A stretch of DNA of 46,715 nt, from positions 1 through 46,715 of the forward strand of contig JAABTQ010000023.1 in the NCBI GenBank assembly GCA_011389745.1, written 5' to 3'. Both the position numbers and the translations under genes were made by a program. The notes under the pieces are model-generated. The model searched no databases and was not told the DNA's origin. It saw nothing but the letters and a program-made list of their open reading frames with translations. Origin of the DNA: Desulfobacteraceae bacterium. GTDB taxonomy: Bacteria; Desulfobacterota; Desulfobacteria; Desulfobacterales; SKZT01. Shown in pieces: positions 15,054-46,715 of the stretch. The stretch's first letter is position 1. Each line of letters opens with the position of its first letter.

Positions 15054-18000
15054 CTATCGGTTGAGGCGGATTGATTTAAGACGGGTCATCCCATCTAAAG
15101 CAAGGCTGAAAAGAGCCGGAATGAGAAATATGGTAAATACTGTCGATACGAACAAGCCGCCGATAACCACACTTCCCAATCCCCTGTAAAATTCCGATCC
15201 CGCTCCCGGCGAAAGTACCAGCGGCATCAATCCGAACACGGTGGTAATCGTGCTCATGTAAATGGGTCTGATTCTGGTGCGAACGGATTCAGCGATGGCA
15301 TCCCGGGGGGCCATTGACCTTTCGCGAATATTGTTCAAAGACTGGTGCACAATAAGAATCGCGTTATTGACCACGATTCCCACCAGGATCACAAACCCCA
15401 GCATGGTTAAAATATCCAGGGACTGCTCCATGATCAACACATTTACCATAAAAAGCCCCACAAATCCTCCCGCCGCCGCCAGCGGGACACTAAACATGAT
15501 GATAAAAGGGTAAAAGAAATTCTCAAACAATGCGCTCATCAGCAGGTAACTGATAATCAGCGCGAGGATAAAATTCCATTGAAGTGCCGTTCGGGTTCGG
15601 GTCAGGTCATCGGCAGTTCCACCCAAATCAATACTATAAAAACTACCAAGATTTCCGCTGCTTTTAATGGGATTAACCACCTTTTCCAAAATTTCATCCA
15701 TAGCTGTTTCTAAAGCGATTTCCTGGGGAGGAATCACCTGGATAACGATTGCCCGCTGTGAATCCAGATGGTTGATCTGCGTCGGCCCCTCCTCAAGGCG
15801 AATATCGGCCAATGAACCCAATGTGACTTTTTCGCCGGCAGGTGTGATAATCGGAACCTGTCCCATATCCTGGGTTCGCGTGATGGTACCCGCTTCACTT
15901 TTAACCACCAGGTCGATTTCCTCACCATATAATCGGTAATTGCTCGCTACGGTGCCATCCACCATGGCACTTACGGTCACTCCGAATTGAGATGTGGTCA
16001 TATTTACACGAGTAAGGCGATCCCTGTTGGGTGTCACCTGCATTTCCGGATTCCCTAAGTCAAGACTGGGAACAGGTCTTACCTGGGCGCCTGGAACCAC
16101 CTGCCTGACATTTCCGAAAATTTGCCTGCCCAGGTCAATCAACTGAATTAAATCAGGTCCCTTGATTTCTATTTCAATGGACCGTCCTTTACCAATTTCG
16201 GTGGCAAAAAGACTGGGTTGCTGAACAATGGCAATCATTCCCGGGATTTTACTCAATGCCTGATACACGTAAGGAAGCAGTTCACGGGTTCTTTCCTGGA
16301 TTTTGGAAACAATCCCCATGAAAACCTGCTGCCCCTGTGCCACATAGAAAAAATTATTCGAAGGCGGAAGTCCCAGTTGATCAGCCAATTCACTTTTTTG
16401 ATCTCCTCTTTCGACCAGCGGTAAAATATCGGCTTCCACCTCCCTGGCAATATTTTCCAGTTCCCCAAGATTGTATCCGGGTGGCGGAAGAAGAATCCCG
16501 AAAAGAATTTCCCGGTTTCCTTCCGGAAGATACTCGGTTTGAGGCATAAGTACCCACACAAACCCCACTGCCAGAACAATCAACGTCGCTGCAACTGCCA
16601 GCCTTGCAGTCACGTAACCGCACATCCAATAAACAAAGCGGTAGATCGTATCGACAAAGGCAGATGCCAACCCTTTTAAAGGATTGAACTTTTTTTCTTC
16701 CGTTTCTTTCCGCACAACCCTACCGAGAATTTTTGCGGATAAAGACGGAATCACGGTTATTGAAACAATCAGACTCAGAACCACTGAACTGCTGATCGCG
16801 ATGGCAATATCCCTGAAAAGCTGTCCGGCTTCCTCCTCCACGAACACAATAGGCAAAAACACCGCAACCGTGGTCAGGGTGCTGGCAAGCACCGCTCCCC
16901 ACACTTCGACTGTTCCGTCATAGGCCGCCTTGAGCCTGGATTTTCCCATCTCACGGTGACGAAATATATTCTCAAAAATAACGATGGAATTATCCACGAC
17001 CATCCCGATGGCAAAACTGATACCGGCCAGGCTGACCACGTTAATGTTTCTTCCCATCAGGGTCATTACCAGAAAGGTTCCGACAACGCTGATTGGAATG
17101 GCAATAGCAACAATGATGGTGCTTGAAAAATTTCTCAAAAACAGCAACAGGACCAAAACGGCAAGAGAGCCGCCCAAATAAATGTTTTGCTTAACAAGAT
17201 CAATAGCGCTGTAAATATAACTGGTCTCATCATAAACCTGCTCGATAGCCAGTTGCCGATCACTCAAAATTCCATTGTTGAGTTCTTCCAAAGCTTCCTG
17301 AATCCGTTCCATCACCACAAGAACGTTTGTGCCGGGTTCACGGACTGCATTCATGACAATGGTTGGAATACCGATATGACGAACCACCAAATCCAGATCT
17401 TCATGGTTTAATTCCACCCGGGCCACATCTCCAACGGTAATAGGGATGTCTCTTTCACGTTTAATGATGACTTTTGCAACATCCGCCTCACTTTGATATT
17501 CTCCCAGGGTTCGGACCACATAGCGTCGTTTCCCTTCATCAAAGTTCCCCCCGCTGATATTTTTATTTTCAACATCCAGCGCCGCAATCAGCTCCGGGAT
17601 ACTGACACGACGGGCAGCCAGGGCATTGGGATCCACAATGACATGAATTTCTCTTTGTTGCCCGCCATAAATATTAACTGAAGCCACCCCCGATATTCGT
17701 TCGAGGTTGGGTTTGATGTTGTCATCTAAAAAATCATATTCGTGCTGAAGGTTTCCTGTGTAACCTTCAAGGCCTTTTAAAATCATCCAGGCAATGGCTT
17801 GTTCTCTTCGCCCCCCTGATTTGATTACAGGCTTTTCGATATCCACGGGATATCGCTTGACCTGATCGAGCTTATTGGAAACCCTAAGGAGTGCTTCATC
17901 CGTGCTGGTACCGATCTCGAACATGAGATTGATGTATGAGTTTCCATAACTGCTTTCACTTTTCATCTCCTTGAGGCCCTCGAGATTTTTCAGCTCATCT

Positions 18001-29798: not shown

Positions 29799-31454
29799 AT
29801 GGAACTGATCGATCAACATAGTAAAAAAATAATGGAAGGTTGCAAGAAAAGAGCCAGAGACGCCGGTTTGAGTTTCCGGGATGAAAGCCTTGAATATATT
29901 GTCACCAACAGGGATCTTCTGGAACTTTCCCCGAAGGGAATGATTCCCACCTTGTACGATTACTGGGTCCATGATGTTGAGGTATTAAAAGAAAAAGGAA
30001 AATACGAATTATATCCCGGCAATCCATATGAAACCGTGATTAACACAAGGCCGGCCATATCCTATTATAACGACAACAACCCGGATTGGCTTAATGTAAT
30101 GATTTTCTATCATGTTATCGGCCATATCGATTTTTTCCAGAACAATCTCTACTTTCAACATACCTGGGATTATGATTTTACCGGAGAGGCCTTGTCCGAT
30201 AAACGCATGATTGCAAAACTTCGCTCGGAATACGGGCGATGGGTCGATTATGTCATTGAGTTTTCCCGAAGTATAGACAACCTGGCGGGTTATTTTGATG
30301 AACTGACCAGGATTGATTATCAGCCCAAATCAACCCGCACCAAAAAACTCGATTATTATTTCGATGTCTTTCTGCAGCGGGAAAAAAAGGTCCATATCAC
30401 CGAATACATCAAAGACATTGAAAAATATAATAAATATATCAAGATATACGGCAACCTTGGTGAACAGACGTTTTTTTCGGAAATAGACCAAAAGTATCCG
30501 GAGTTTCAATCCCTTTACAATAAAAGCCTGACCAAAAAACCAGAAAAAAGACTCGACCTGATTCAGTATCTCATGGAAAACTCCGATTTTTTAAACAAGG
30601 AAGATAATAAATGGATGCAATCCGTGATGCAGGTGATCAGAAAAACCTCGATCTTTTTCCAGCCCCAGATTCGCACCAAAATTATGAATGAAGGATGGGC
30701 CAGTTACTGGCATGAGATTCTTTTTTTACAGGATGACCGGATTAGCGGTCACGAGGTGGATTTTGCCAGGGTCAATGCCTATGTAACATCTCTTCCGCGT
30801 ATGGGCATGAACCCTTATGCTCTGGGAATGCGTCTTTTTTACCACATTGAGGACTTGGGGGATAGGGGAAAGCATAGCTACACTTTTCAGAAGCTTTTAG
30901 ACGAATATGAACGGAAAAAATTTGATGCAAAACAGGCTAAAGGAAAGGATCTGGTTTTTGAGGTCCGGAAGAATTTTTCGGATTTCCTTTTCATCAACAC
31001 CTTCGTAGACCAGGATTTCATGAAAAATAACGATCTGTTTGTGGCGGGAAGGCGCCTGGACCAGCAGCGAATGGTATGGGAATATTATGTTAAAAGTCGC
31101 AAGCTTAAAGACTACAAGGAAATGTTGTTCGATTCCCTGTATCATCCGCCTCACATTGAAATTGACTCTGAAAAGGGCAAGGATCAATACCTCTACCTTG
31201 TCCATCATTTTGAAGGCAAGCCGCTAATTACCGAGTATATCCTTAACACCTTACTCGGCATTGAATATTTATGGGGTGGTCCGGTACAGCTGGAGACCAG
31301 TGAAGTGGTCTCTGTCGGTATTCCAAGGCCGGCCCGGATTTTACCCTCGTTGACACCACCACCTCAGCAGGATGAGGAATCAGCACCGGAGATCACCTGG
31401 CAGCGTGTGGTATACACCATGGAAAAACGAAAGCTTTCCAAAAAGGTAGTTTAA
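29799..31454 (+). CDS. spoVR: SpoVR family protein
   Basis: A 551-residue SpoVR/YcgB protein. Family landmarks are seen: MIFYHVIGHIDFFQNNLYF near residue 105, the histidine-rich region PQIRTKIMNEGWASYWHEI near 300, NPYALGMRLFYHIED, and VAGRRLDQQRMVWEYYVKSR. The EGWAxxxH pattern looks like a metal or nucleotide site, but no activity is established. In Bacillus SpoVR affects spore cortex formation; this organism is unlikely to sporulate, so the shared theme is stress or dormancy. The start has GGGA eight bases upstream. It starts 15 bases after yeaH and ends three bases before the second prkA, so all four form one transcription unit. Confidence 0.92.
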   Translation: MELIDQHSKKIMEGCKKRARDAGLSFRDESLEYIVTNRDLLELSPKGMIPTLYDYWVHDVEVLKEKGKYELYPGNPYETVINTRPAISYYNDNNPDWLNVMIFYHVIGHIDFFQNNLYFQHTWDYDFTGEALSDKRMIAKLRSEYGRWVDYVIEFSRSIDNLAGYFDELTRIDYQPKSTRTKKLDYYFDVFLQREKKVHITEYIKDIEKYNKYIKIYGNLGEQTFFSEIDQKYPEFQSLYNKSLTKKPEKRLDLIQYLMENSDFLNKEDNKWMQSVMQVIRKTSIFFQPQIRTKIMNEGWASYWHEILFLQDDRISGHEVDFARVNAYVTSLPRMGMNPYALGMRLFYHIEDLGDRGKHSYTFQKLLDEYERKKFDAKQAKGKDLVFEVRKNFSDFLFINTFVDQDFMKNNDLFVAGRRLDQQRMVWEYYVKSRKLKDYKEMLFDSLYHPPHIEIDSEKGKDQYLYLVHHFEGKPLITEYILNTLLGIEYLWGGPVQLETSEVVSVGIPRPARILPSLTPPPQQDEESAPEITWQRVVYTMEKRKLSKKVV

Positions 31455-31457
31455 TAT

Positions 31458-33782
31458 ATGAATCGTGTAAAGCATGCAATGGAAAATCTGGATCAGGAAG
31501 TCAGCCAGCACGAATGTGAAGTTCCTATTTCCTACAACCAGTTTCTAAAAGAAGTGGCTGAAAAGCCCATTTGGATCATCCGAAATGTCTTTCAGGTATT
31601 TCATGATATGGTCAAAGCCTATGTGGGCGAAGGATACGATGAATACCCGAACGATCCGGAATCCATCAGTTTTGTCTATTATGACTGCAGTAAGCTTCTT
31701 GTGGAAGGAGCGGACCATCCTTTTTTTGCCGACCGCGTTTTTGCCAACCGTTTTATCAGCCATGTGGAATCCTTTAAGCGCGGGGCCCAGCAAAATAAAA
31801 TTTATATATTTGACGGCCCCCATGGATGCGGCAAAAGTACTTTTTTAAACAACCTTTTGTACAAATTTGAAGAATACGCCAACACTGAGGAAGGGTCCCG
31901 CTATGAAATTCTCTGGCGGCTGGATCGAAAAATGTTCGGTGACGTTATCCCCGAATCATTATCGGATAGTCCAAATTATATGTTTGACTTTCTTGAACCG
32001 GAACAACCCGAGTTATGTGATCAGTCAAGCAAACCGGAACATTTTTATTCCCATCCTGATTCTAAAAATCCAAAATTCGATTTTTTCACGAATGGGAATT
32101 TCATCGATGTTCCATGTCCCAGTCACGATCATCCCCTTTTAATGGTACCCAAGGAATTTCGCCGCCGGTTTCTCGATGATCTTCTGGAAAATGATGAAAG
32201 CAAGTATCGGATTTTCAATGATAAGGAATTTGACTGGGTTTTTCGCGAAACACCCTGCACCATTTGTACATCCATTTACGCAGCTCTTCTCAAAAACCTG
32301 CAAAGTCCCCAAAAAGTATTCGGAATGATTTATGCGCGGCCATATCGGTTTTCCCGCCGTCTCGGTGAAGGCATCAGCGTATACAATCCCGGAGATAAAC
32401 CTATGCGCCAGGCTGTGCTGTTCAATCCCATGCTCCAGCAGCGTATCAACGCCCTTTTAAAAGACAGCAATCTGGTAAAATATATTTTTTCAAGATATGC
32501 AAAAACCAATAACGGCATTTACGCTCTCATGGACATCAAATCCCATAATACAGATCGTCTCATGGAATTGCACAACATTATCAGCGAAGGCATACACAAA
32601 GTCGAGGACACGGAAGAAAATGTCAATTCCCTCTTTTTCGCACTCATGAACCCCGAAGACAGAAAAAATGTTCAGGGGTTCCCATCATTTTCAGACCGTA
32701 TCGAATACATCAATATTCCCTATGTACTGGATCTGAGCACCGAAGTGGAAATTTATCGAAACATTTTCGGCAAACATATCGACAACAGTTTTCTTCCAAG
32801 AGTTCTTCACAACTTTGCCCGGGTGATCATCTCCAGCCGCTTGATGACCCGCTCCGACGCTTTGCTGGAATGGATTAAAAATCCTGAAAAATACCGCCAA
32901 TACTGTGATGAAAACCTTCAACTTTTAAAGATGGAAATCTATACGGGTCATATCCCCCGCTGGCTTAGCGAAGAGGATTTAAAACGCTTTACCGCAAAAC
33001 GGCGCAGAAAAATTGTCGGAGAATCAAAGTCCGAAGGAACCAAAGGATTTTCCGGGCGTGACTCCATCAAAATATTCAATGAATTTTACTCAGCTTTCGC
33101 CCGGGAAGACCGTCTGATTAATATGTCCATTTTGTGCGACTTTTTTACAAAAACCCGCGCGGATTTAAACCAGATGATCCCCACCGGGTTTATGGAGTCT
33201 TTGCTTCGCATGTATGACTACACCATATTGCAGGAAGTCAAGGAGTGTCTTTATTATTATAATGAAGAACAGATTTCCCGGGATATCCTGAATTATATGT
33301 TTGCGGTTAATTTCGAACCTGACACCACGGAAATATGCAAATACACCGGTCAAAACCTTAATATTACCGAAGCGTTTTTCAATGACATCGAACGGCGGTT
33401 TTTGGGGAAAAAAGTGCCGCCCAGTGCCCGTAAGGAATTTCGTAAGGATACTCAGAAACAGTATACCGCAAAAACCCTGACTCAGGAAATGATGATCGAA
33501 AGCAAACCTATCGAGAAAACCAGCCTGTTCGAATCACTTCACGAACGTTATGTCCACAATTTAAAAGAGAAAGTGCTCGACCCGTTTCTTGAAAATGAAA
33601 ATTTCCGGAAAGCCATCAAAGACTACGGGGAAGAAGCTTTTAAAACCTATGACCGCCGCATTCGGGAAGATGTCACCTTCCTGATGAAAAACCTTTGTAC
33701 CAAAGCACGGTACACGTCCAGAGGGGCCAAGGAAGTCTGCATTTATGTCATCGACAACGACTTGGCCAAGAGATTTACTTAA
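31458..33782 (+). CDS. second, divergent PrkA-type serine protein kinase / AAA+ ATPase
   Basis: A 774-residue protein, longer than the first PrkA by about 90 residues. Walker A is GPHGCGKST near residue 120, preceded by an unusually long N-terminal extension. After Walker A it carries CPSHDHPLLMVP near residue 220 and CTIC near 265: a CxxH...CxxC pattern that looks like a zinc site and is known from canonical PrkA sequences. The segment RKNVQGFPSFSDRIEYINIPYVLDLSTEVEIY includes the arginine-finger-like DRIE motif. The C-terminal PrkA domain is present (FNEFYSAFAREDRLINMSILCDFF). It is the last gene of the cluster. It probably acts with or against PrkA1, YeaH and SpoVR; that is inference. Confidence 0.88.
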   Translation: MNRVKHAMENLDQEVSQHECEVPISYNQFLKEVAEKPIWIIRNVFQVFHDMVKAYVGEGYDEYPNDPESISFVYYDCSKLLVEGADHPFFADRVFANRFISHVESFKRGAQQNKIYIFDGPHGCGKSTFLNNLLYKFEEYANTEEGSRYEILWRLDRKMFGDVIPESLSDSPNYMFDFLEPEQPELCDQSSKPEHFYSHPDSKNPKFDFFTNGNFIDVPCPSHDHPLLMVPKEFRRRFLDDLLENDESKYRIFNDKEFDWVFRETPCTICTSIYAALLKNLQSPQKVFGMIYARPYRFSRRLGEGISVYNPGDKPMRQAVLFNPMLQQRINALLKDSNLVKYIFSRYAKTNNGIYALMDIKSHNTDRLMELHNIISEGIHKVEDTEENVNSLFFALMNPEDRKNVQGFPSFSDRIEYINIPYVLDLSTEVEIYRNIFGKHIDNSFLPRVLHNFARVIISSRLMTRSDALLEWIKNPEKYRQYCDENLQLLKMEIYTGHIPRWLSEEDLKRFTAKRRRKIVGESKSEGTKGFSGRDSIKIFNEFYSAFAREDRLINMSILCDFFTKTRADLNQMIPTGFMESLLRMYDYTILQEVKECLYYYNEEQISRDILNYMFAVNFEPDTTEICKYTGQNLNITEAFFNDIERRFLGKKVPPSARKEFRKDTQKQYTAKTLTQEMMIESKPIEKTSLFESLHERYVHNLKEKVLDPFLENENFRKAIKDYGEEAFKTYDRRIREDVTFLMKNLCTKARYTSRGAKEVCIYVIDNDLAKRFT

Positions 33783-36444: not shown

Positions 36445-38181
36445 ATGGACAAAATATTGAGGATCGACATGGGGGCTGATGGAGGGCCGAAATTTTCCGA
36501 AGAACCATTGGGTGATTATGCTGGTTTAGGCGGTCGGATCATGACTTCCACAGTGGTGGCCAAAGAAGTTGATCCCATGTGTCATGCACTTTCCGCCCAA
36601 AATAAACTGGTGATAGCGCCCGGACTTTTAAGCGGAACCACGGCCGTGATGTCCGGAAGAATTTCTGTAGGATGCAAAAGTCCTCTGACCGGCACCATCA
36701 AAGAGTCCAATGCCGGAGGTCAAGGTGCCCAGGTTATGGCCAGACTGGGATACGCGGCTATTATTTTGGAAGGAAAACCCAAAGATGATAAAATTTACAA
36801 GCTGCTTATCAATAAAGATGGCGTAAAAGTCGAAACGGCCGAAGATCTGAAGTTTTTAGGGAACTATGCCACGGTGGAAAAACTGGTAAGCCAGTATGGT
36901 GATAAAATAACCTGTTTAAGTATCGGCTCCGCCGGCGAGCGAAAAATGGGTGCAGCTTCCATAGCCGTTACCGATATGGAAGTGAGGCCGACTCGTCATT
37001 GCGGGCGGGGCGGTACAGGTGCGGTGATGGGCAGTAAAGGTCTAAAAGCCATTGTCATGGATGATACCGGATGTGATATGAGGCCGCCAAAAGATCCCGA
37101 CGCCTTTAAAGAGGCCAACAAAGCATTTGTTGCCGGACTCAAGAAACATCCTGTAACCGGTGAAGGTCTTCCGGCCTATGGGACCAATGTATTGACGAAC
37201 GTCCTAAATGAAGCGGGCGGTTATCCGACACGAAATTTCCAGACCGGACGATTTGATGGTGCTTCCAAAATCAGCGGAGAAACCCAGGCCGAGTTGGAAA
37301 CATCACGTGGCGGAAAAGCGACTCATGGCTGTCACAGAGGTTGTATCATCCGTTGTTCCGGAACTTTTAATGACAAAAACGGCAACTTTTTAACCAAGCA
37401 GCCTGAGTATGAAACCGTATGGGCCCATGGCGGAAACTGCGGCATTGACGATCTGGATGCCATTGCCCTGATGGATCGCCTTGATGATGATTTCGGTGTG
37501 GATACCATTGAAATGGGGGCTACCATTGCAGTCGCCATGGAGGCGGGACTCGCCAAGTTCGGTGATGCGGAGGCCGCCATAAATCTTGTGAAAGAAGTGG
37601 GCAAGGGAAGCCATTTAGGACGTATTTTAGGTAACGGTGCCGCAGTGACAGGCAGGGTGTTCGGCGTGGAAAGGGTTCCTGTTGTCAAGGGGCAGGCCAT
37701 GCCGGCTTATGATCCCCGCGCAGTCCAGGGAATCGGTGTTACCTATGCAACCACCACCATGGGAGCTGACCATACCGCAGGATATGCAGTAACTGCCAAT
37801 ATACTGGGTGTTGGTGGAAAAGTTGATCCTTTAAAACCCGAAGGCCAGATAGAACTCTCCAGGAATCTGCAAATTGCCACCGGGGCCGTGGATTCAACAG
37901 GCATGTGCCTGTTTATTGCGTTTGCGCTCCTGGACCAACCTGAGACATTCCAGGCATTGATTGATATGATCAATGCTTTCTATGGATTGAGCCTGACTGC
38001 CGATGATGTGACCGCTATGGGCAAGCAGGTTCTGAAAACCGAAAGAGATTTCAATACCCGGGCCGGTTTTACCAAGGAGGATGACCGGCTTCCAGCATTT
38101 TTCAAAAATGAGAAGCTTCCGCCCCACAATGTGACCTTTGAGGTTAAAGATGAAGAACTGGACCAGCTATTTAATTTTTAA
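36445..38181 (+). CDS. aor: aldehyde:ferredoxin oxidoreductase (tungsten/molybdenum-pterin enzyme)
   Basis: A 578-residue AOR-family enzyme, which interconverts aldehydes and carboxylic acids with a tungstopterin and one [4Fe-4S] cluster, exchanging electrons with ferredoxin. Cluster ligands: CHRGCIIRC near residue 295 (CxxxCxxxC spacing as written) and the distant Cys in DSTGMCLF near 487. Pterin-binding landmarks: SGRISVGCKSPLTGTIKESN near 75, HCGRGGTGAVMGSKGLKAI near 190, and GADHTAGYAV near 440. AAGGAGGATAATTAT before the ATG fixes the start. It is monocistronic and ends at a clear terminator. It differs strongly from the second AOR at 41.8 kb, so the two likely serve different substrates or electron partners. 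Confidence 0.92.
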   Translation: MDKILRIDMGADGGPKFSEEPLGDYAGLGGRIMTSTVVAKEVDPMCHALSAQNKLVIAPGLLSGTTAVMSGRISVGCKSPLTGTIKESNAGGQGAQVMARLGYAAIILEGKPKDDKIYKLLINKDGVKVETAEDLKFLGNYATVEKLVSQYGDKITCLSIGSAGERKMGAASIAVTDMEVRPTRHCGRGGTGAVMGSKGLKAIVMDDTGCDMRPPKDPDAFKEANKAFVAGLKKHPVTGEGLPAYGTNVLTNVLNEAGGYPTRNFQTGRFDGASKISGETQAELETSRGGKATHGCHRGCIIRCSGTFNDKNGNFLTKQPEYETVWAHGGNCGIDDLDAIALMDRLDDDFGVDTIEMGATIAVAMEAGLAKFGDAEAAINLVKEVGKGSHLGRILGNGAAVTGRVFGVERVPVVKGQAMPAYDPRAVQGIGVTYATTTMGADHTAGYAVTANILGVGGKVDPLKPEGQIELSRNLQIATGAVDSTGMCLFIAFALLDQPETFQALIDMINAFYGLSLTADDVTAMGKQVLKTERDFNTRAGFTKEDDRLPAFFKNEKLPPHNVTFEVKDEELDQLFNF

Positions 38182-38352: not shown

Positions 38353-39513
38353 ATGTTTCAAGCCCAAACCGTCATTTCGAAAGAGCCTTTTACCAGGGAA
38401 TCCGGACAAAAACTGGGGGAGGCTTTATGTAAAAAGCTGGAAAACTCGCCGAAAGCCTGCTGGCTTTTTTGCTCGCCCAAAGACGGTCTTGAAAATCTTT
38501 TAAAAGGCGTTGCCGAGGCGGTAGAGACCGACAAACTGGTGGGTTGCACCACGGATGGAGAAATATCCGATAGGGGAATCAGTGCTAAATCAGCCGTGCT
38601 GGCGGGTGTTGTCAGCGATCAAATTGATTTTGAAGTGGTGATGACCGAAAATATCGGAAAGGACCCCCAAAAAGCCGGGGAGAGGCTAGCTGAACAATTT
38701 TCCCTTTCAGCAACCTATATTCAACTTTTTTCCGATGGTCTGACTGCCAATGGATGTCAAATTTTAAAAGGAGTTCAATCAGTATTGGGAAAAGGAATTC
38801 CCATTTCCGGAGGAACGGCCGGAGATGACGGCAGATTTGTCCGGACATGGCAGTTTGCCGGAAATCGAGTTTTCTCCGATGCGGCAGTGGCGATTGGTTT
38901 ATCCGGTCATTTCAGTGTGGGACTTGGGGTTCACAGCGGCTGGTCACCGGTTGGTCTGGCGAAAAAAATCACTAAAGCCAAGGGCAATGTGCTCTATGAA
39001 CTGAATCATGAGCCTGCTTTGAATGTTTATGAGAGGTTCCTTGGAAAGCACGCAAACAAATTGCCGTCGGTGGGCGTAGAATATCCTCTTGGGCTGATTG
39101 ACAGATATTGGACTGTGGGAGATTCTAACTACTGCCTGTTGAGGGCCACCATGTCGGTAAACCGGAACGACGGGTCAATTACATTTGCCGGTGATGTGCC
39201 TGAAGGGACCATGGTTCGGTTGACCTGTGCAGACAGCGCATCCATTCTGGATGCCGCCGGAAGGGCTACCCGGATGGCCTTGGACCAACTGGAAAAAACA
39301 TCTCCGGTGATGACTTTTGTCTACTCCTGTATGGCACGAAAAATAGTGCTTGGGCGAAGAATTACAGAAGAATTGGATCAAATTCGTCAAAATGCAGGGC
39401 AAAATATTCCTGTGGTGGGATTTTTCACTTATGGTGAATTCAGTCCTGTAATACCCTGTGGGACATGCGTACTTCATAATGAGACCGTCACTGTGGCTCT
39501 GATAGGGGTTTAG
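38353..39513 (+). CDS. FIST-domain sensory protein
   Basis: A 386-residue soluble protein made of a FIST N domain (about residues 25-215: VGCTTDGEISDRGISAKSAV, YIQLFSDGLTANGCQILKGV, GTAGDDGRFVRTWQFAGNRV) and a FIST C domain (about 225-370, ending VPVVGFFTYGEFSPV and the family phrase HNETVTVALIGV). FIST modules are predicted to bind small ligands, perhaps amino acids, and are usually linked to signal transduction. Here the next gene, 94 bases on in the same direction, is a hybrid histidine kinase, so the protein probably supplies its signal. The pair is bracketed by two AOR loci, suggesting a role in sensing related metabolites; that part is inference. Confidence 0.9.
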   Translation: MFQAQTVISKEPFTRESGQKLGEALCKKLENSPKACWLFCSPKDGLENLLKGVAEAVETDKLVGCTTDGEISDRGISAKSAVLAGVVSDQIDFEVVMTENIGKDPQKAGERLAEQFSLSATYIQLFSDGLTANGCQILKGVQSVLGKGIPISGGTAGDDGRFVRTWQFAGNRVFSDAAVAIGLSGHFSVGLGVHSGWSPVGLAKKITKAKGNVLYELNHEPALNVYERFLGKHANKLPSVGVEYPLGLIDRYWTVGDSNYCLLRATMSVNRNDGSITFAGDVPEGTMVRLTCADSASILDAAGRATRMALDQLEKTSPVMTFVYSCMARKIVLGRRITEELDQIRQNAGQNIPVVGFFTYGEFSPVIPCGTCVLHNETVTVALIGV

Positions 39514-39607
39514 GAGAGCGACCATTGGAACCCGAAGGTTGCCATCATTTTTTGAGTAGATACCTCCTGTCGAAATTTTGGAATGGTCGGAAAGTTACTC
39601 CTTAAAA

Positions 39608-41599
39608 ATGCATCGTGAAAAAACCTTGTTGAATCGTATCCAGGAATTGGAAGAACTTCTCGACTTATCGGAGAGAAAATCTGATATTTTGACCAATCTG
39701 CTCAAAGAGGCCAGCGCCGAGTTTCAACAGGCGCTGGAAAAAGTCACGATATCGGAATCCAATTTCCGGGCTGTTTTTGAAAATGCTCCCGAGGCCATTT
39801 ACATCTTGTGCACCGACACCCGAAAAATACTCGACTGTAACCCTTTTACAATGGAATGGCTTGGATATTCCCGTGATGAACTTCTATCCATGCGTGTCGA
39901 TGATATTCTGGCGGCGGGCTCGGAAGGAGTCGAGTACAATGCCGGAAGGACAATTGAACACGGGATGGTTAAAATTTCGGAACGGCAATTCCAAAAAAAA
40001 GATGGGGCCCTTGTGGATGCTGAAGTGACCGGTACGTTGATCGAATATGAGGGAAAGCGACGGATGGTGGTCCTGGTGCGAGACATCACCGAGAGAAAAA
40101 CTCTGGAGGAACTTTCCCGATATAAAGAGTTGTTTGACAACGTGAGTGATCCGGTTTTTATCAACGACTCAAAAGGACGCTTTTTGGAAGTCAATGACGT
40201 GGCTTGTGACTTTTTTGGATATCCTCGCATCGAGCTTCTTCACAAAGCCATCAAACATCTTATCGCTCCCGGACAAAATCAGGTTGTTTCAGAAATGGGA
40301 GCGAAAATTCGCAATGGGGAAGCTGTGACTTTCCAGCTGGAAATGATTACCCAGGATAAAAAAACTATTCCGTTCGAGTTTCATGGCCGCTCAATTAAAT
40401 TTTTAGGAAAACCTGCTGTACTCAGTGTGGCTCGGGATCTGAGTGTACGTAAAAAGATGGAAGAAGCGTTAGTTAAAAATGAACGGCTTTCAGCCTTGGG
40501 TGAAATGGCAAGTGGTGTGGCTCATAATTACAACAATTTACTTCAGATGATTATTGCCTCAGGCGAGGCAGCTTTGGCCAAAATGGAGGCCGGGCGAATT
40601 CGCGAAGCACGGGATTCTGTTAAACTCATTTTGGAAGCCGGGCGACGGGGCGCTGATACAGTCAGAAGAATCAAGGATTTTACAAATGTCCGTTCCGGAC
40701 AGATTGCTCAAAAAGTTCCCTTCGATATTGGGGAACTTCTCCAGGAGGCAGTGGAGTTAACAAAACCGCTTTGGAAAGATCCCCAGAATAGCGGAAAATA
40801 TATAATGCTCCTGGATAAACCTGTTGGATGCATGGTGAATGCAAAAGCTTCGGAAATCTATGAGGCACTGATCAACCTGATAAAAAATGCCATCGAGGCC
40901 ATGCCGGATGGAGGTAGGCTGCGAATTTTCAACCGGATCACGGATTCCCATATCCATTTGTATATACAGGATACAGGTTGTGGCATTGCAGAAAAAAACC
41001 TGGAACGAATTTTCGAACCGTTTTTCACTACCAAAGGCGCAAAAAGCAGCGGTTTAGGATTGCCCTCCAGTTATGGCATCATCAAAAGAAATCAGGGGGA
41101 GATGACTGTGGAGAGCAGCCCTGGTAAAAGTACCTGTTTTTGTGTCACCCTGCCCCTTGCCGATGGTTTGGTAAAACAGCCGAAACCTGAAATCATTCCG
41201 GTTAAAACCAAAAAAATCCGGTTTTTGCTTATCGATGATGAAATCAATATTCTGAAAGCTATGGAGATGTTTTTTGAGGATACGGAAATCGATTTAATTG
41301 TCGCCGATAAAGCTTCCGAGGGTATTAAAACCTTAAAAAAGACAAAGCCGGATGTGATTCTGTGCGATCTTGGCATGGATGACATGAACGGATGGGAGGT
41401 CGGAAAGATCGTTAAGGAATATTATGCAAAAATGGGCACGGAAAAAGTTCCTTTCATTTTGTACACTGGTCTTGATATTCCGCTGGATTCTCAAAAACTC
41501 ATAGAAAGCGGCGTAGACAAGGTGGTCACCAAACCCATATCCTGCGAACAACTCGAGCGTATTGTTCAGGAAATTGTTTCATGTAGCCCCTCCTTCTAA
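39608..41599 (+). CDS. hybrid sensor histidine kinase (PAS-PAS-HisKA-HATPase-REC)
   Basis: A 663-residue cytoplasmic hybrid kinase. A coiled-coil start (NRIQELEELLDLSERKSDIL) is followed by two PAS domains (about residues 50-160 and 165-285), then a dimerisation helix with the phospho-acceptor His in GEMASGVAHNYNNLLQMI near 310, an ATPase domain with DTGCGI and GLGLPSSYGI, and a receiver domain from about 540 (FLLIDDE, phospho-acceptor Asp in CDLGMDDMNGWEV, conserved Lys in VTKPI). No transmembrane segment. A TTG start at 39578 would add ten residues; the ATG at 39608 is preferred, though neither has a strong ribosome binding site. Probably receives its signal from the FIST protein encoded just upstream. 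Confidence 0.9.
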   Translation: MHREKTLLNRIQELEELLDLSERKSDILTNLLKEASAEFQQALEKVTISESNFRAVFENAPEAIYILCTDTRKILDCNPFTMEWLGYSRDELLSMRVDDILAAGSEGVEYNAGRTIEHGMVKISERQFQKKDGALVDAEVTGTLIEYEGKRRMVVLVRDITERKTLEELSRYKELFDNVSDPVFINDSKGRFLEVNDVACDFFGYPRIELLHKAIKHLIAPGQNQVVSEMGAKIRNGEAVTFQLEMITQDKKTIPFEFHGRSIKFLGKPAVLSVARDLSVRKKMEEALVKNERLSALGEMASGVAHNYNNLLQMIIASGEAALAKMEAGRIREARDSVKLILEAGRRGADTVRRIKDFTNVRSGQIAQKVPFDIGELLQEAVELTKPLWKDPQNSGKYIMLLDKPVGCMVNAKASEIYEALINLIKNAIEAMPDGGRLRIFNRITDSHIHLYIQDTGCGIAEKNLERIFEPFFTTKGAKSSGLGLPSSYGIIKRNQGEMTVESSPGKSTCFCVTLPLADGLVKQPKPEIIPVKTKKIRFLLIDDEINILKAMEMFFEDTEIDLIVADKASEGIKTLKKTKPDVILCDLGMDDMNGWEVGKIVKEYYAKMGTEKVPFILYTGLDIPLDSQKLIESGVDKVVTKPISCEQLERIVQEIVSCSPSF

Positions 41600-41813: not shown

Positions 41814-43706
41814 CTATTTTTGCAAAACCTCATCAGCCACATCTTTTAAGTCAAGTTCCTCGAGTTTTTCACGGGTGGGAATTCCTGTCTTTACGTCCCA
41901 ACCCCGAAGTGTGTAGTATTCGTCTTTCATTGCCTCGAATTTATCCCTGTCAAGCACTTCTCCTTCGAATTTACCTTTTTTCAAAGGTTCTTCAAAAAAC
42001 TTTTTAGGAAGGCTATCGTCTTTTCTGGTCAGACCCTGCCGAACATCAAACATTCGTTCCAGATTCCGGACCCGCTCGGAAATTTTCAACAGCCTGGGAA
42101 CATCCCAGTCTTTTCCTGTGGCCAGATTAAAAACTTCAGTGGCCATGTTGACATCGTAATAAATAAAAAGCCCATAAAGCCATTTGCATACCCCCAGGTT
42201 ATCAGCCACACGCTCCATATGTTCCGAAAGTATTGTCGAAAAGGCTTTTCCTTTGTACGAGGTCGGTATGGCGGCTTCGGAATCTCCGAACTGCTCCTTT
42301 GCAACTTGCTGAAACCAGTCAGGAGCGTGGTTCCAATCGACTTCAAGAAGGCTTCCCCTCAGCGGAAGCGGATCACCCCGATGACCCACTGCCTGCATAA
42401 GTCCGGTGCCTTTATAAGCCCTGAATTCATAAGCATGAGGCGCAAGTCCTTTGACAATATCCACTTTTTCCACAGCATCGGTTCCGATTGTTTCGGCAAA
42501 AACTTTCGGGCCTTCGGCCAGCAGGTCACCATAGCCCTCACGGTTGGCTATTTTTTGGATCGTACCCAGGATAGCCTCTTTGCTTCCACGCTCCATAGCG
42601 ATTCCATCGGTATCTTTTTCCGTGATGATCTTATGATGGTAAAGTTCCATGAGAAGGCTGATAGCAGCGGAGGTCTCGGTACAGTCCATTCCGAGCTTGT
42701 TAACCATGAGAGTGGCTTCCAGAAACGTATCCATGTTCAGGTTCCATACAGCCCCTGTAAATCCGCTAAAAGGTTCACAAGAGGTAAGCCCTTTGCCGAT
42801 TCCCGGTTTGGAGAAAAAGTTCATGCAGCGGTTGGGACAGCAGAAGCACCCCATGTTTTTTACCTGATTTTTTTCAACATAATCGGCACCGCTGTATCCC
42901 TCTAAAATGTCATCCCAACAGACATCTTCAAAATATCCCACCGGAAAAAAACTCAACTGGTACATCATATGAACGCCCCGGGCAACACCGAACACGGACA
43001 ATTCCTTGTAGGCCGGATGTTCACGGATTTCATTGTTGATTTTAATAGAAAGCTCCAAAAACTCATTAGGTCTGGCCACACGGATACCACCTGAACCTCT
43101 GACAGCAACTGCCTTTAAGTTTTTGGAACCCATGACCGCCCCCATACCTGTTCGGCCGGCAGCATCCCCGGTTTCAGTCAGAATACAGGCAAAGCGAACC
43201 AGTTTCTCCCCTGCCGGACCAATACAGACAGACTTGATTTCCGGGTCTCCCAATTCCTCCTGAATGGCTTTTTGTGTTTCAAAAGTATCTTTTCCCCAGA
43301 TATGTTCGGCATCCCGGATTTCCACTTTATCATCTTTGATCCAGATATAGCAGGGTTTGGCGGCTTTTCCACGAATCATCACATGGTCGTACCCCGCAAA
43401 TTTCAGCTCAGGTCCCCAATAAGCTCCGAAATTGGATTTGGCCCGAAGCTGGCTCATGGGTGATAAAGCCGTGACATCCACACGGCCGGAGCCGGACAGA
43501 GCCGTTCCGGACAAAGGGCCGGTATTGAAAATCAGAGGGTTTGACGGATCAAACGCATCGGTTCCGGGTTTGTAATGGTCATATATAAGGCGTACCCCCA
43601 AACCTCTTCCACCAAGATAATTTTCAACATAGGATTCGGTGGATTCGGTGGTGACGTCGCCGCTTGTCAAATCAATGAATAAAATATTTCCTACCCATCC
43701 GTACAT
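41814..43706 (-). CDS. aldehyde:ferredoxin oxidoreductase, catalytic subunit of a multi-subunit complex
   Basis: A 630-residue AOR-family tungsten/molybdenum enzyme, clearly distinct from the 36.4 kb paralogue. N-terminal landmarks: LGGRGLGVRLIYDHYKPGTD, LIFNTGPLSGTALSGSGRVD and AAGRTGMGAVMGSKNLKAVA (pterin contacts). Cluster ligands: CFCCPNRC near residue 289 (CxxCxxxC) and Cys in NLGVCKWLYG near 505. Its start overlaps the stop of the polyferredoxin gene by one base, so both are made together. The operon layout, with AOR after a four-cluster ferredoxin and two hydrogenase-like subunits, recalls multi-subunit AORs such as Aor and Bam complexes, but the hydrogenase-like partners differ. The substrate is unknown; aldehyde oxidation or carboxylate reduction is inferred from the family. 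Confidence 0.92.
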   Translation of the reverse strand: MYGWVGNILFIDLTSGDVTTESTESYVENYLGGRGLGVRLIYDHYKPGTDAFDPSNPLIFNTGPLSGTALSGSGRVDVTALSPMSQLRAKSNFGAYWGPELKFAGYDHVMIRGKAAKPCYIWIKDDKVEIRDAEHIWGKDTFETQKAIQEELGDPEIKSVCIGPAGEKLVRFACILTETGDAAGRTGMGAVMGSKNLKAVAVRGSGGIRVARPNEFLELSIKINNEIREHPAYKELSVFGVARGVHMMYQLSFFPVGYFEDVCWDDILEGYSGADYVEKNQVKNMGCFCCPNRCMNFFSKPGIGKGLTSCEPFSGFTGAVWNLNMDTFLEATLMVNKLGMDCTETSAAISLLMELYHHKIITEKDTDGIAMERGSKEAILGTIQKIANREGYGDLLAEGPKVFAETIGTDAVEKVDIVKGLAPHAYEFRAYKGTGLMQAVGHRGDPLPLRGSLLEVDWNHAPDWFQQVAKEQFGDSEAAIPTSYKGKAFSTILSEHMERVADNLGVCKWLYGLFIYYDVNMATEVFNLATGKDWDVPRLLKISERVRNLERMFDVRQGLTRKDDSLPKKFFEEPLKKGKFEGEVLDRDKFEAMKDEYYTLRGWDVKTGIPTREKLEELDLKDVADEVLQK

Positions 43707-44194
43707 TATTGGTTCCTCCCTAATGCCTGTTTAACCAAAACTGGTATCCGGTCAGCATTTTGAATCAGCTTCAGATAGGCCTCTTTGGATATTTCCTCAC
43801 AAACTATCGCACCGGTGGGACATACTTTGGCGCATGTCGGATCACCATCACATAAATCACATTTCAAGACCTTCCCGTTATCCAGGTCCACGAATGTGGC
43901 TCCAAACGGGCAAGCAAACACGCAGCTCAAACATCCGATACAGCGATGGGGATCTACTTCCATGGCCCCGGTCATATAGTTTCGATAAGTAGCGCCTTTT
44001 GGACAGACCATTTCGCAGGCTGGTTCTTCACATCTCAAACAGTTGATGGGCACAAAAATGGCTTCCTGCTCCCATTTGATCACATGGATTCTTCCCTTGG
44101 CAGGGTTACATTCCCCATCATGTTTTAAGGAGCAATATGTTTCGCAGGCTCTGCAACCTGAACATTTTTCAGCGTCGATAATCAAGGTTTTCAT
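43706..44194 (-). CDS. four-cluster ferredoxin-like electron-transfer subunit
   Basis: A 162-residue protein of the DmsB/HycB type with sixteen cysteines in four groups: CSGCRACETYC from residue 11, CLRCEEPACEMVCP near 53, CIGCLSCVFACP near 86, and CDLCDGDPTCAKVCP near 112. It would hold four [4Fe-4S] clusters and lacks a signal peptide. Such subunits carry electrons between a tungsten/molybdenum active site and a partner complex. It lies between the hydrogenase-like large subunit gene (53-base gap) and the AOR gene (one-base overlap), which makes it the natural link between both. GGAGG stands 11 bases before the ATG. Confidence 0.92.
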   Translation of the reverse strand: MKTLIIDAEKCSGCRACETYCSLKHDGECNPAKGRIHVIKWEQEAIFVPINCLRCEEPACEMVCPKGATYRNYMTGAMEVDPHRCIGCLSCVFACPFGATFVDLDNGKVLKCDLCDGDPTCAKVCPTGAIVCEEISKEAYLKLIQNADRIPVLVKQALGRNQ

Positions 44195-44247: not shown

Positions 44248-45570
44248 TTAAAATGGAAGCAAACTGACTTCAATTCGGTTTTTTGTTTTTTCCCAGCTTT
44301 CTTTGTCGGCCATGGACACCTCGTAAGCTTTCTGAGCCATCAAACAACGCAGAGCATTGTTTTGCATAGAGGTATCCAGAATACGGATATTTTTAACAAG
44401 ACCCTTTGAATCCACCTGATAGTGATGATAAATAATCCCATGAGGAGACTCCAGAGCGGCAAAACCTTCGGACCCAATGTTTTTAGGAATTTGCCTTGTA
44501 AAAGGTCCGGTAAGTTTTTCCCTGACACAAAGCCGGGTCATCTTTTCAGCAGATTGAATAGTCTCAATAATGAGTGCCCAAAAAGCCGCCCAAACGCTGA
44601 AATGCGGAAAAGGCCCGAGACTCTCCACCATGTTGCAACGCTCTTCTTCGGCTTTTTCAGTATCCATGGCTTTTTTATGGTTCATCCTTGCCAATGGTCC
44701 GGTAAAAAACAGGCTGTCAGCTCCCAATTGAACACCCTGCCACCCCTTATCCCTGAAAAAAGCAAAAGGCAGATAGCTCCAGGATTCTTTGGCAAGGTCA
44801 ATGTTATCCAAAGCTTTTTCAACGGGAAATCTCCTGCTTTCTTTTCCACTGCTGTCCGTGACAACCAATTCGTCTTCCTGCGGATTTTTAGAATTCCGGA
44901 TATCTAATGAAACTCCAGCCATGGGCTTCAAGCTGATTTCTGAAAAATCTTTCAAAGCTTTTGGGGATGTCCAAAAATTTTTTCTGAAAAAGTCTGCCAG
45001 GTTCGCGACAAATTGGACCAGTATTCCGGCGATTTCTTCCAACCGTTCATAACTGTTGTTTTTCAAATAGCCACTAACACCTCCCGGCAGAGACGTCAGT
45101 GGATGTTCATGCCTTCCTCCGAGTATGATGGCCGCTTCCTGAGCAAGAGCCAGATGACGCATGATATCTTTTGCCATATGGGAAAAAGTATATTGAGATG
45201 TTCCTCGCCTTGGTGAAGCAGAGTCCGTAAAAGGGTTTTCAAAAGCGGTCAGAAGAAAATAAAGTTTTTTGAAATGTCCGGTAAGAAATTGAGTCTGAAG
45301 CAATGCCTCCCGCATGTTTATCGCAAGCGGCGGCGGAGTGACATCAAACAGGCGATCGAGTGCCTTTGCGGATACCAAATGATGGGCCGGTGAAAGAATG
45401 GTTAAAATTCTGGGAATTTCTTCCACAGGGCGGCCTTCACACATGGCGGATATTTTCAGAGGTACGGTGACCTGGTAAAATACACGGGGAGTCCCACTGC
45501 TGTTTAAAATAGCCACCCGGGCAGGAAGGTCCTGCCATCTGACAGGGTCTATGGTTTTGGTCTGAGTCAT
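44248..45570 (-). CDS. [NiFe]-hydrogenase large-subunit homologue lacking all nickel-binding cysteines
   Basis: A 440-residue protein aligned by eye to soluble group 3 (Mvh/Frh/Hox-like) hydrogenase large subunits: CEGRPVEEIPRI and SPAHHLVSAKALDRLF flank the first metal site, and KNIRILDTSMQN the last. In true enzymes these sites read RxCGxC and DPCxxC. Here they are RILTIL (near residue 55) and DTSMQN (near 400), so the four ligands are Leu, Leu, Ser and Asn. The C-terminal tail of about 35 residues stays attached, and no maturation protease is needed or seen. Nickel-iron catalysis is therefore excluded by known chemistry. Complex I subunit NuoD is a known precedent for such loss. The start overlaps the small-subunit stop (ATGA), with GAGAGG upstream. 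Role inferred: structural or redox partner of the AOR. Confidence 0.88.
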   Translation of the reverse strand: MTQTKTIDPVRWQDLPARVAILNSSGTPRVFYQVTVPLKISAMCEGRPVEEIPRILTILSPAHHLVSAKALDRLFDVTPPPLAINMREALLQTQFLTGHFKKLYFLLTAFENPFTDSASPRRGTSQYTFSHMAKDIMRHLALAQEAAIILGGRHEHPLTSLPGGVSGYLKNNSYERLEEIAGILVQFVANLADFFRKNFWTSPKALKDFSEISLKPMAGVSLDIRNSKNPQEDELVVTDSSGKESRRFPVEKALDNIDLAKESWSYLPFAFFRDKGWQGVQLGADSLFFTGPLARMNHKKAMDTEKAEEERCNMVESLGPFPHFSVWAAFWALIIETIQSAEKMTRLCVREKLTGPFTRQIPKNIGSEGFAALESPHGIIYHHYQVDSKGLVKNIRILDTSMQNNALRCLMAQKAYEVSMADKESWEKTKNRIEVSLLPF

Positions 45571-46556
45571 AAATTTCCTCTCAATGCGCGCAATAATTCA
45601 CATTGGGACGGCAGGTTGTATCGATAAAAAGTGCCTGTCAAGTCATGGAATTTTTCAACGATTTTTTTAATTTCCCCGGCTTTTTCGGAATCAAAAGTGG
45701 AGCTGATGGCTGAGACCATTTTGGCTCCGGGATCATAGACTGCCGGTGGTTTTCCGAAACATCCGCGGCAGGGGAGTCCAACGCCGGTGCACAATCCGCC
45801 GCACCCTTCCCGGGTGGCAATACCCTGGCACACAAGGCCCTGCTCCAGAAGACAACGTCCGGTTGATTCATAGGTTTCATAAGGGCGTTTTGCGTTGGAA
45901 AACTTTTTTTCTTCCTTTTTTCTGGAACAACTGGCACATACGGCTTTTTCTCCGGCAAAGGTGCTTTTTTTCGGAGGGAAAACACCTGAGACGATTGCCT
46001 GGGAGATCGGCTCCGGGAGTCTTGATGCTGCATAAGACAAATTGGAAGTGGAACCTTTCCACCCTGAAAAAGCCTGAATGGCTGCCCAAACAAGATTTTG
46101 GGTGGGTGGGCACCCGGGAATATCATAATCCACATCAACAACTTGTGATAGTGCGGATACCAGGTGCTCCACCCGGGGTAGAGGAGGAGGGCTTTCCGAC
46201 AATTCTGCTTTTTCCCCTGCGGAGGTTTCAGGGGTAGCCTTGGTCCGGAGATTGACCAGGCCGGGCATTCCGCCGAATGATGCACACGCTCCAATGGCAA
46301 TCAGAATTTGTGATTTTTCCCTGAGCCTGATGGCTGCTTCACGGTCGCTCTCTGTGCTGACAGCACCGGCATAAAAGCAAATATCCATTAAGGGCGCTTT
46401 TTCAAAATCGTTCCATCGGGAACCCAAAACATATGGCCAAAAGGCAATATCAAACAGACGGGACAATGAGCTGACCTGATAATGAATATCCAGGATCACA
46501 TTTTCGCACACCCGGCATCCCGTCGCAGTATATATGGCAATTTTTTTCTTAGACAA
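45567..46556 (-). CDS. [NiFe]-hydrogenase small-subunit-like protein (MvhG/complex I 20-kDa family)
   Basis: A 329-residue iron-sulfur protein, first gene of the operon. Proximal cluster ligands appear complete: TGCRVCE near residue 13, the Cys in IGACASFGGMPGL, and PGCPPT near 150, plus a further cysteine-rich C-terminal block (CASCSRKKEE, then GRCLLEQGLVCQGIATREGC and LPCRGCFG) as in MvhG-type subunits with three clusters. An insert of about 35 residues rich in Glu, Thr and Pro follows GMPGL. The frame is open to 46610, but AAGGAG at seven bases before a TTG at 46556 fixes that TTG as the start, directly ahead of SKKKIAIYTATGC. No signal peptide, so the complex is cytoplasmic. Electron wire for the cysteine-less large subunit. 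Confidence 0.88.
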   Translation of the reverse strand: MSKKKIAIYTATGCRVCENVILDIHYQVSSLSRLFDIAFWPYVLGSRWNDFEKAPLMDICFYAGAVSTESDREAAIRLREKSQILIAIGACASFGGMPGLVNLRTKATPETSAGEKAELSESPPPLPRVEHLVSALSQVVDVDYDIPGCPPTQNLVWAAIQAFSGWKGSTSNLSYAASRLPEPISQAIVSGVFPPKKSTFAGEKAVCASCSRKKEEKKFSNAKRPYETYESTGRCLLEQGLVCQGIATREGCGGLCTGVGLPCRGCFGKPPAVYDPGAKMVSAISSTFDSEKAGEIKKIVEKFHDLTGTFYRYNLPSQCELLRALRGNL

Positions 46557-46649
46557 TCTGTCACTCCTTAAAAATGACGAATTAAAAATTAAATAAAACA
46601 TGAAACTCATTAACTGCTAACTGCTTTCTTCTTAAGTAGTTTCCAACAA

Positions 46650-46715
46650 GTCCCCCTTTGAAAAAGGGGGATTTAAGGGGATTTTTAAAACGGCGTCAGT
46701 TTGTCAAATCCCCCC
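46650..46715. repeat. hairpin-forming intergenic repeat, running past the window end
   Basis: TCCCCCTTT and AAAGGGGGA form a near-perfect hairpin (46650-46671), followed by a second G-rich block and a terminal AAATCCCCCC that would pair with it. This type of intergenic repeat is widespread in environmental bacterial genomes. It lies upstream of the hydrogenase-like operon and is cut off by the end of the window. Confidence 0.6.

Follow-up and report, generated by a model that had tools for sequence, protein, structure and literature searches.

HdrABC-MvhAGD (group 3c; 5odc) resembles the locus described here in the homology and fold of its hydrogenase large and small subunits, in the cysteines of the small subunit, in the adjoining MvhD and in the presence of HdrA, HdrB and HdrC in the cluster. 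Unlike this complex, the family to which our locus belongs lacks the nickel ligands, shows no maturation protease gene, adds a tungsten aldehyde ferredoxin oxidoreductase (AOR) with its ferredoxin, and has an HdrA that bears a GltD domain. The class IV bifurcating tungsten oxidoreductase of Acetomicrobium (WOR, WorABCSL) likewise pairs an AOR large subunit with a four-cluster ferredoxin that feeds a flavin unit; for the family, we infer this feeding. However, the flavin unit of the family is of the Hdr type instead of the NuoEFG-like WorABC, a hydrogenase-derived pair lies in between, and the AOR carries T243V and H448P. Class II benzoyl-CoA reductase (BamBCDEFGHI) also combines an AOR-family enzyme with a ferredoxin subunit and Hdr/MvhD-like subunits, but it is devoid of a hydrogenase-like pair and contains the NuoEFG-like BamGHI. 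NuoD, Fpo, Mbx and other metal-free homologues have lost the nickel ligands and kept the partner cluster subunit; these are membrane-linked proteins of complex I or group 4, whereas our family is of the soluble group 3c type.

A hydrogenase that lost its metal site and was kept as an electron-transfer part is the presumed forerunner of complex I. The nickel-ligand loss in the present family is independent of the complex I lineage and occurred by different lesions; if the reading set out below is true, the family would show in a soluble enzyme the kind of change from hydrogenase to electron-transfer part that is presumed for complex I. The locus further suggests a tungsten enzyme complex of a kind not yet described. 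Our search of the open-access literature returned no description of a metal-free Mvh-AOR form. This form was missed since MvhA proteins lacking either motif were left out of a survey of bifurcating enzymes (PMC6085437), and since the 2026 classification of tungsten oxidoreductases, in which benzoyl-CoA reductase (Bam) alone is given Hdr-type partners, has no other Mvh/Hdr-linked class (PMC13328260).

The window, which is the whole stretch of 46,715 nucleotides analysed here, comes from a Desulfobacteraceae bacterium. Its minus strand carries the hydrogenase-like gene pair of the original prediction (44248-46556), followed by genes for a ferredoxin and an AOR (Table 1).

Table 1 Features of the window and of the head gene in related loci (positions without a locus name refer to the window)
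Feature	Position	Strand	Remark
Dispersed repeat	46626-46715	.	about 90 bases, upstream of the pair; the contig ends inside it
Pseudo-MvhG, hydrogenase-type small subunit	45567-46556	-	open reading frame open to 46610
Pseudo-MvhA, group 3c hydrogenase-type large subunit	44248-45570	-	all four nickel ligands absent
L1 site of pseudo-MvhA, EIPRILTILSPAH	45382-45420	-	4-residue deletion taking out Cys1; Cys2 to Leu
C-terminus of pseudo-MvhA, SLLPF and stop codon	44248-44265	-	stop just short of the DPCxxC position
AOR-type ferredoxin subunit (WorS-like)	43706-44194	-	18 Cys
Tungsten AOR family protein (WorL)	41814-43706	-	
PAS/hybrid histidine kinase	39578-41599	+	convergent to AOR
FIST-domain sensor protein	38353-39513	+	paired with the kinase
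FdhA-like head gene	L070:2096-4147; L069:2275-4251; L072:1909-3927; L075:2154-4109; L101:14475-16451		

Identity of the pair and loss of the nickel site

Among solved structures, the large subunit best matches MvhA (5odc_F, E 2.4e-32) and other group 3 large subunits, and the small subunit best matches MvhG (5odc_E, E 5.6e-47), indicating that the pair is of group 3c (Mvh) origin. Profile matches of the large subunit are limited to a weak Pfam match to PF00374 (21 bits, below the cut-off) and a best NCBIfam match to VhuA (E 1e-30, far below the VhuA cut-off); in both collections, no NuoD or complex I 49 kDa profile matched up to E 1. The small subunit is a clear 20-kDa-type hydrogenase small subunit in Pfam and best matches VhuG in NCBIfam (E 4.2e-48, far below the VhuG cut-off). 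A complex I-type origin of the pair is excluded by these family matches and by the tree described below. The small subunit probably starts at a TTG codon (46556) after the Shine-Dalgarno sequence AAGGAG, and the large-subunit start overlaps the small-subunit stop as ATGA.

Compared with intact Mvh-type (group 3c) hydrogenases, the large subunit has indeed lost all four nickel ligands, although not in the way first proposed. ICGxCxxxH, the L1 motif of MvhA as defined previously (PMC6085437), is absent from all nine full-length family members owing to a 4-residue deletion and a change of Cys2, which is Leu in the family and Arg in two members. The claim that the first site had kept its length was mistaken: the segment from GRPVEE to HH comprises 19 residues in each of the nine (GRPVEEIPRILTILSPAHH) versus 23 in those intact homologues where the segment can be matched cleanly (e.g., GRPAEELPRIVSRICGICPWMHH). 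In the best and parsimonious alignment, EELPRIL pairs with EELPRI(V/M), and Gly-Ile-Cys2 becomes Thr-Ile-Leu; Cys1 is thus deleted, and the RIL of the window protein is not the old RIC.

The second pair of ligands is lost by truncation. DTSMQN had been read as a degenerate DPCxxC, but DTSMQNN aligns with VATVQNN of MvhA (5odc_F), in which DPCLSC (C442 and C445) does not follow until some 38 residues later. The window protein stops immediately short of this position and consequently lacks the L2 motif AYDPCxxCATH, and reading through its TAA stop restores no DPCxxC motif. In all members whose 3' end could be read (the nine full-length and two partial copies), the stop falls at the same C-terminal point, while the codon differs (TAA, TAG or TGA). 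Selenocysteine read-through is excluded by this variation and by the absence of an xxC motif after the stop. As a separate observation, group 3 large subunits with DP-UGA-xSCATH, in which UGA stands for the first Cys of DPCxxC, occur in L008, L013, L014, L016 and L030, and these proteins from several genomes of the order are likely NiFeSe forms.

The hydrogenase fold is nevertheless predicted to persist. As modelled by AF2 (pLDDT 78, pTM 0.84), the large subunit has the hydrogenase fold and matches 5odc_F over 397 residues with Z 32.4, where the comparison (VIA-align and Foldseek) concerns folds only and has no bearing on function. In the small subunit, 12 cysteines align with those of canonical MvhG and are conserved in all members, in agreement with the original prediction that the cluster cysteines are kept; they would suffice for three [4Fe-4S] clusters.

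Distribution, origin and selection of the family

The metal-free large subunit was found in the window's genome and in ten other MAGs of uncultured, sulfate-reducer-like bacteria, which span several families and no fewer than two orders of Desulfobacterota. An order-wide profile search set the metal-free form, present in six genomes, apart from intact MvhA by a score gap, a phylum search added G526 from a different order, and in the class sample the family occurred in 6 of 389 genomes. Scanning named genomes with the large subunit yielded no match, the patterns being too strict. The same scan with the small subunit yielded eight family loci, adding L069 (Deltaproteobacteria MASpbin.1), L075 (WY4.bin13), and L072 and L074, which are Syntrophaceae MAGs closely related to each other. 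Since the small-subunit scan misses members such as G526, the known distribution is a lower bound. Other family genomes include G112 (Olavius algarvensis associated Delta 3) and G001 (Desulfobacteraceae CSSed162cmB_348). G001 is of the same genus as the window's organism, and its homologue is 70-79% identical and carries the same lesions as the window's large subunit.

In a maximum-likelihood tree, the nine full-length large subunits form one clade (support 100/100) nested in group 3c, with a stem of 2.16 changes per site. NG86 dN/dS, computed for three genome pairs, ranges from 0.15 to 0.25 in the large subunit and from 0.13 to 0.25 in the small one. The metal-free state is under purifying selection and has a single origin. 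A lone decaying gene or a sequencing error might be suspected from G001, in which the large-subunit gene is split by a frameshift (L031, about 1302-1342) that may itself be an assembly error. Given the same deletion and stop in ten other MAGs of several families and dN/dS well below 1, we rejected this explanation as extremely improbable. The HdrA and HdrB genes of G001 also look broken, perhaps by assembly errors.

Sequence identity within the family is higher for the small subunit than for the large one in all 36 pairs (58.3 vs 43.7%), whereas among 31 intact Mvh-type homologues the large subunit is ahead in 444 of 451 pairs (53.6 vs 45.4%). This reversal is expected if the large subunit has ceased catalysis and the cluster wire has become the working part. 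It also bears on the possibility that the old metal cavity now binds another cofactor or substrate, similar to the quinone site of complex I, which in NuoD derives from the hydrogenase cavity. While the GGRxxHP loop, the PRIL segment and the His after L1 are still highly conserved, the lost ligand positions are either deleted or occupied by hydrophobic or charged residues (Leu or Arg) instead of conserved metal ligands, the C-terminal pair is truncated, the Arg of the active-site PRG is replaced by His, Asp, Ala, Gln or Glu, and the RxEGH feature is gone or weakened. A large subunit that evolves faster than its small partner is also unlike a catalytic subunit. We therefore consider a new ligand in the cavity, which the original prediction had allowed for, unsupported and unlikely.

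Gene cluster and proposed electron path

Complete loci have the gene order FdhA-like protein, ferredoxin, HdrC, HdrB, HdrA (with GltD), MvhD, small subunit, large subunit, ferredoxin and AOR. This ten-gene order is whole in L069, L070/L063 and L072, in which MvhD and HdrABC, the set of the Mvh-Hdr complex, accompany the pair; L031/L068, L032, L065/L071 and L074 are partial owing to contig ends. In L064/L073 and L101, no gene matched HdrB, and G001 has only an HdrB remnant. L075 contains the pair and the ferredoxin with no adjoining AOR. Siroheme sulfite/nitrite reductase-like genes stand at the expected AOR place in L075 (13139-14662), and in L069 another such gene (16056-16889) follows the AOR on its downstream side.

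The pair occupies the MvhAG position of an Mvh-Hdr flavin complex, and this larger context changes its meaning. HdrA of the family (about 1118 residues) contains an inserted GltD-type domain, which corresponds to the type III architecture, for which NADH has been suggested as the partner (PMC12054007). The NuoEFG-like WorABC module is absent from L070, whose ten genes were all assigned to other families. No protein in the family loci matched the maturation protease HycI of L033; HycI-type protease genes are present in L033, L066 and L067, and HypD is encoded elsewhere in six of seven family genomes.

The FdhA-like head protein keeps its Fe4S4 cysteines and lacks the catalytic Cys/Sec-His pair of cytoplasmic formate dehydrogenase, the corresponding stretch being VYHPWEETEQ or variants of it in the five members that cover the site. 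Some Mo/W enzymes use ligands other than Cys/Sec. The head protein is possibly a second decommissioned module. The neighbouring genes gave no consistent clue to the substrate: FdhD, radical SAM and siroheme reductase-like genes occur in single loci, and the radical SAM neighbour is a weak match to a W-cofactor maturase.

The ferredoxin subunit is closest to 8c0z_C (E 4.7e-35) and 9mqx_E (E 1.1e-29) among solved structures, and its cysteines would leave room for four [4Fe-4S] clusters. We consider it fairly probable that the former Mvh hydrogenase, now metal-free, conducts electrons between the tungsten AOR and an Hdr-type flavin complex and serves as the docking adaptor of the two. Coupling of such a conduit to the AOR was among the original proposals and is the reading best supported here, as the relatives, when compared for intact motifs and for AOR synteny, share both the ligand loss and the gene order. 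The pair, derived from an Mvh-type (group 3c) [NiFe] hydrogenase, would be unreactive with H2; its large subunit would act as a metal-free scaffold that retains the hydrogenase fold and the contact with the small subunit, and its small subunit as a three-cluster wire. The pair would thereby link the AOR/ferredoxin unit to MvhD and the GltD-containing HdrA with HdrBC, in one complex suggested by the gene order. Electrons may pass from the W-pterin of the AOR through its [4Fe-4S] cluster, the four-cluster ferredoxin and the three pseudo-MvhG clusters to the [2Fe-2S] cluster of MvhD and the HdrA flavin, where they may be split between NAD(P)(H)/ferredoxin and the HdrB-type site. Alternatively, the direction may be reversed, so that the flavin unit powers a low-potential reduction by the AOR.

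Counted against this conduit role are the fact that AOR-ferredoxin units of other organisms function without an adaptor, the pair in L075 with no adjoining AOR, and the window's own genome, in which the pair may be detached. On the supporting side, MvhAG and FdhAB dock on the same MvhD (PMC6085437). A purely structural pair, with the AOR ferredoxin passing electrons directly to MvhD/HdrA or to free ferredoxin, would agree with the loose constraint on the large subunit and with the AOR-ferredoxin nanowires that feed flavin units directly in the Acetomicrobium WOR (PMC13328260). However, all 12 cluster cysteines are kept in what is the better conserved of the two subunits, and we regard a structural role as quite improbable. 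Extending the conduit and adaptor role, we tentatively envisage, with more doubt than confidence, a ten-subunit AOR-Hdr complex with decommissioned hydrogenase and FdhA-like modules, in which flavin bifurcation drives a low-potential tungsten-enzyme reaction; the hydrogenase would then have become a lasting electron-transfer part in a separate event, outside the complex I lineage.

AOR active site and the window's own genome

The AOR of the window has 9mqx as its nearest solved relative, and its match to AORs (378 bits) exceeds that to BamB (257 bits). Its counterparts in the remaining family genomes of the order are 80-81% identical, and within the order sample an AOR at or above 79% identity occurs only in genomes that carry the metal-free family. 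We take Thr243, Glu313, Tyr427 and His448 (PfAOR numbering) to be the usual aldehyde-site residues of AOR. The FeS cysteines, E313 and Y427 are kept, and T243V and H448P are present in all eight family AORs aligned. Since T243 and H448 are replaced, aldehyde oxidation should not be assumed; of the coupling to aldehyde oxidation first proposed, the AOR stands and the aldehyde chemistry is less sure. This unusual active site makes the substrate a testable question. Elsewhere in the window, a second AOR-family gene (36445-38181), only distantly related, retains each of T243, E313, Y427 and H448.

The window's genome yielded no close counterpart of the family's HdrA or MvhD (best 43% and 47% identity); it contains one intact [NiFe] hydrogenase (C46) and HypD. 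The repeat in which the contig ends starts 70 bases upstream of the probable small-subunit start and has at least 39 further copies in the genome. Together, the contig end in the repeat and the lack of a close HdrA or MvhD imply that the flavin part is either unassembled or cut off from the pair; as we infer, the organism would still keep an Hdr partner.

The FIST-domain protein and the hybrid histidine kinase may be a sensor/regulator of the cluster. The two genes recur in the same arrangement in L072 (15651-18787; FIST 56% and kinase 55% identity), and L075 contains a partial kinase copy (15109-15567; 53% identity). Further along the window, a SpoVR-like gene adjoins a PrkA-type kinase gene (29799-33782).
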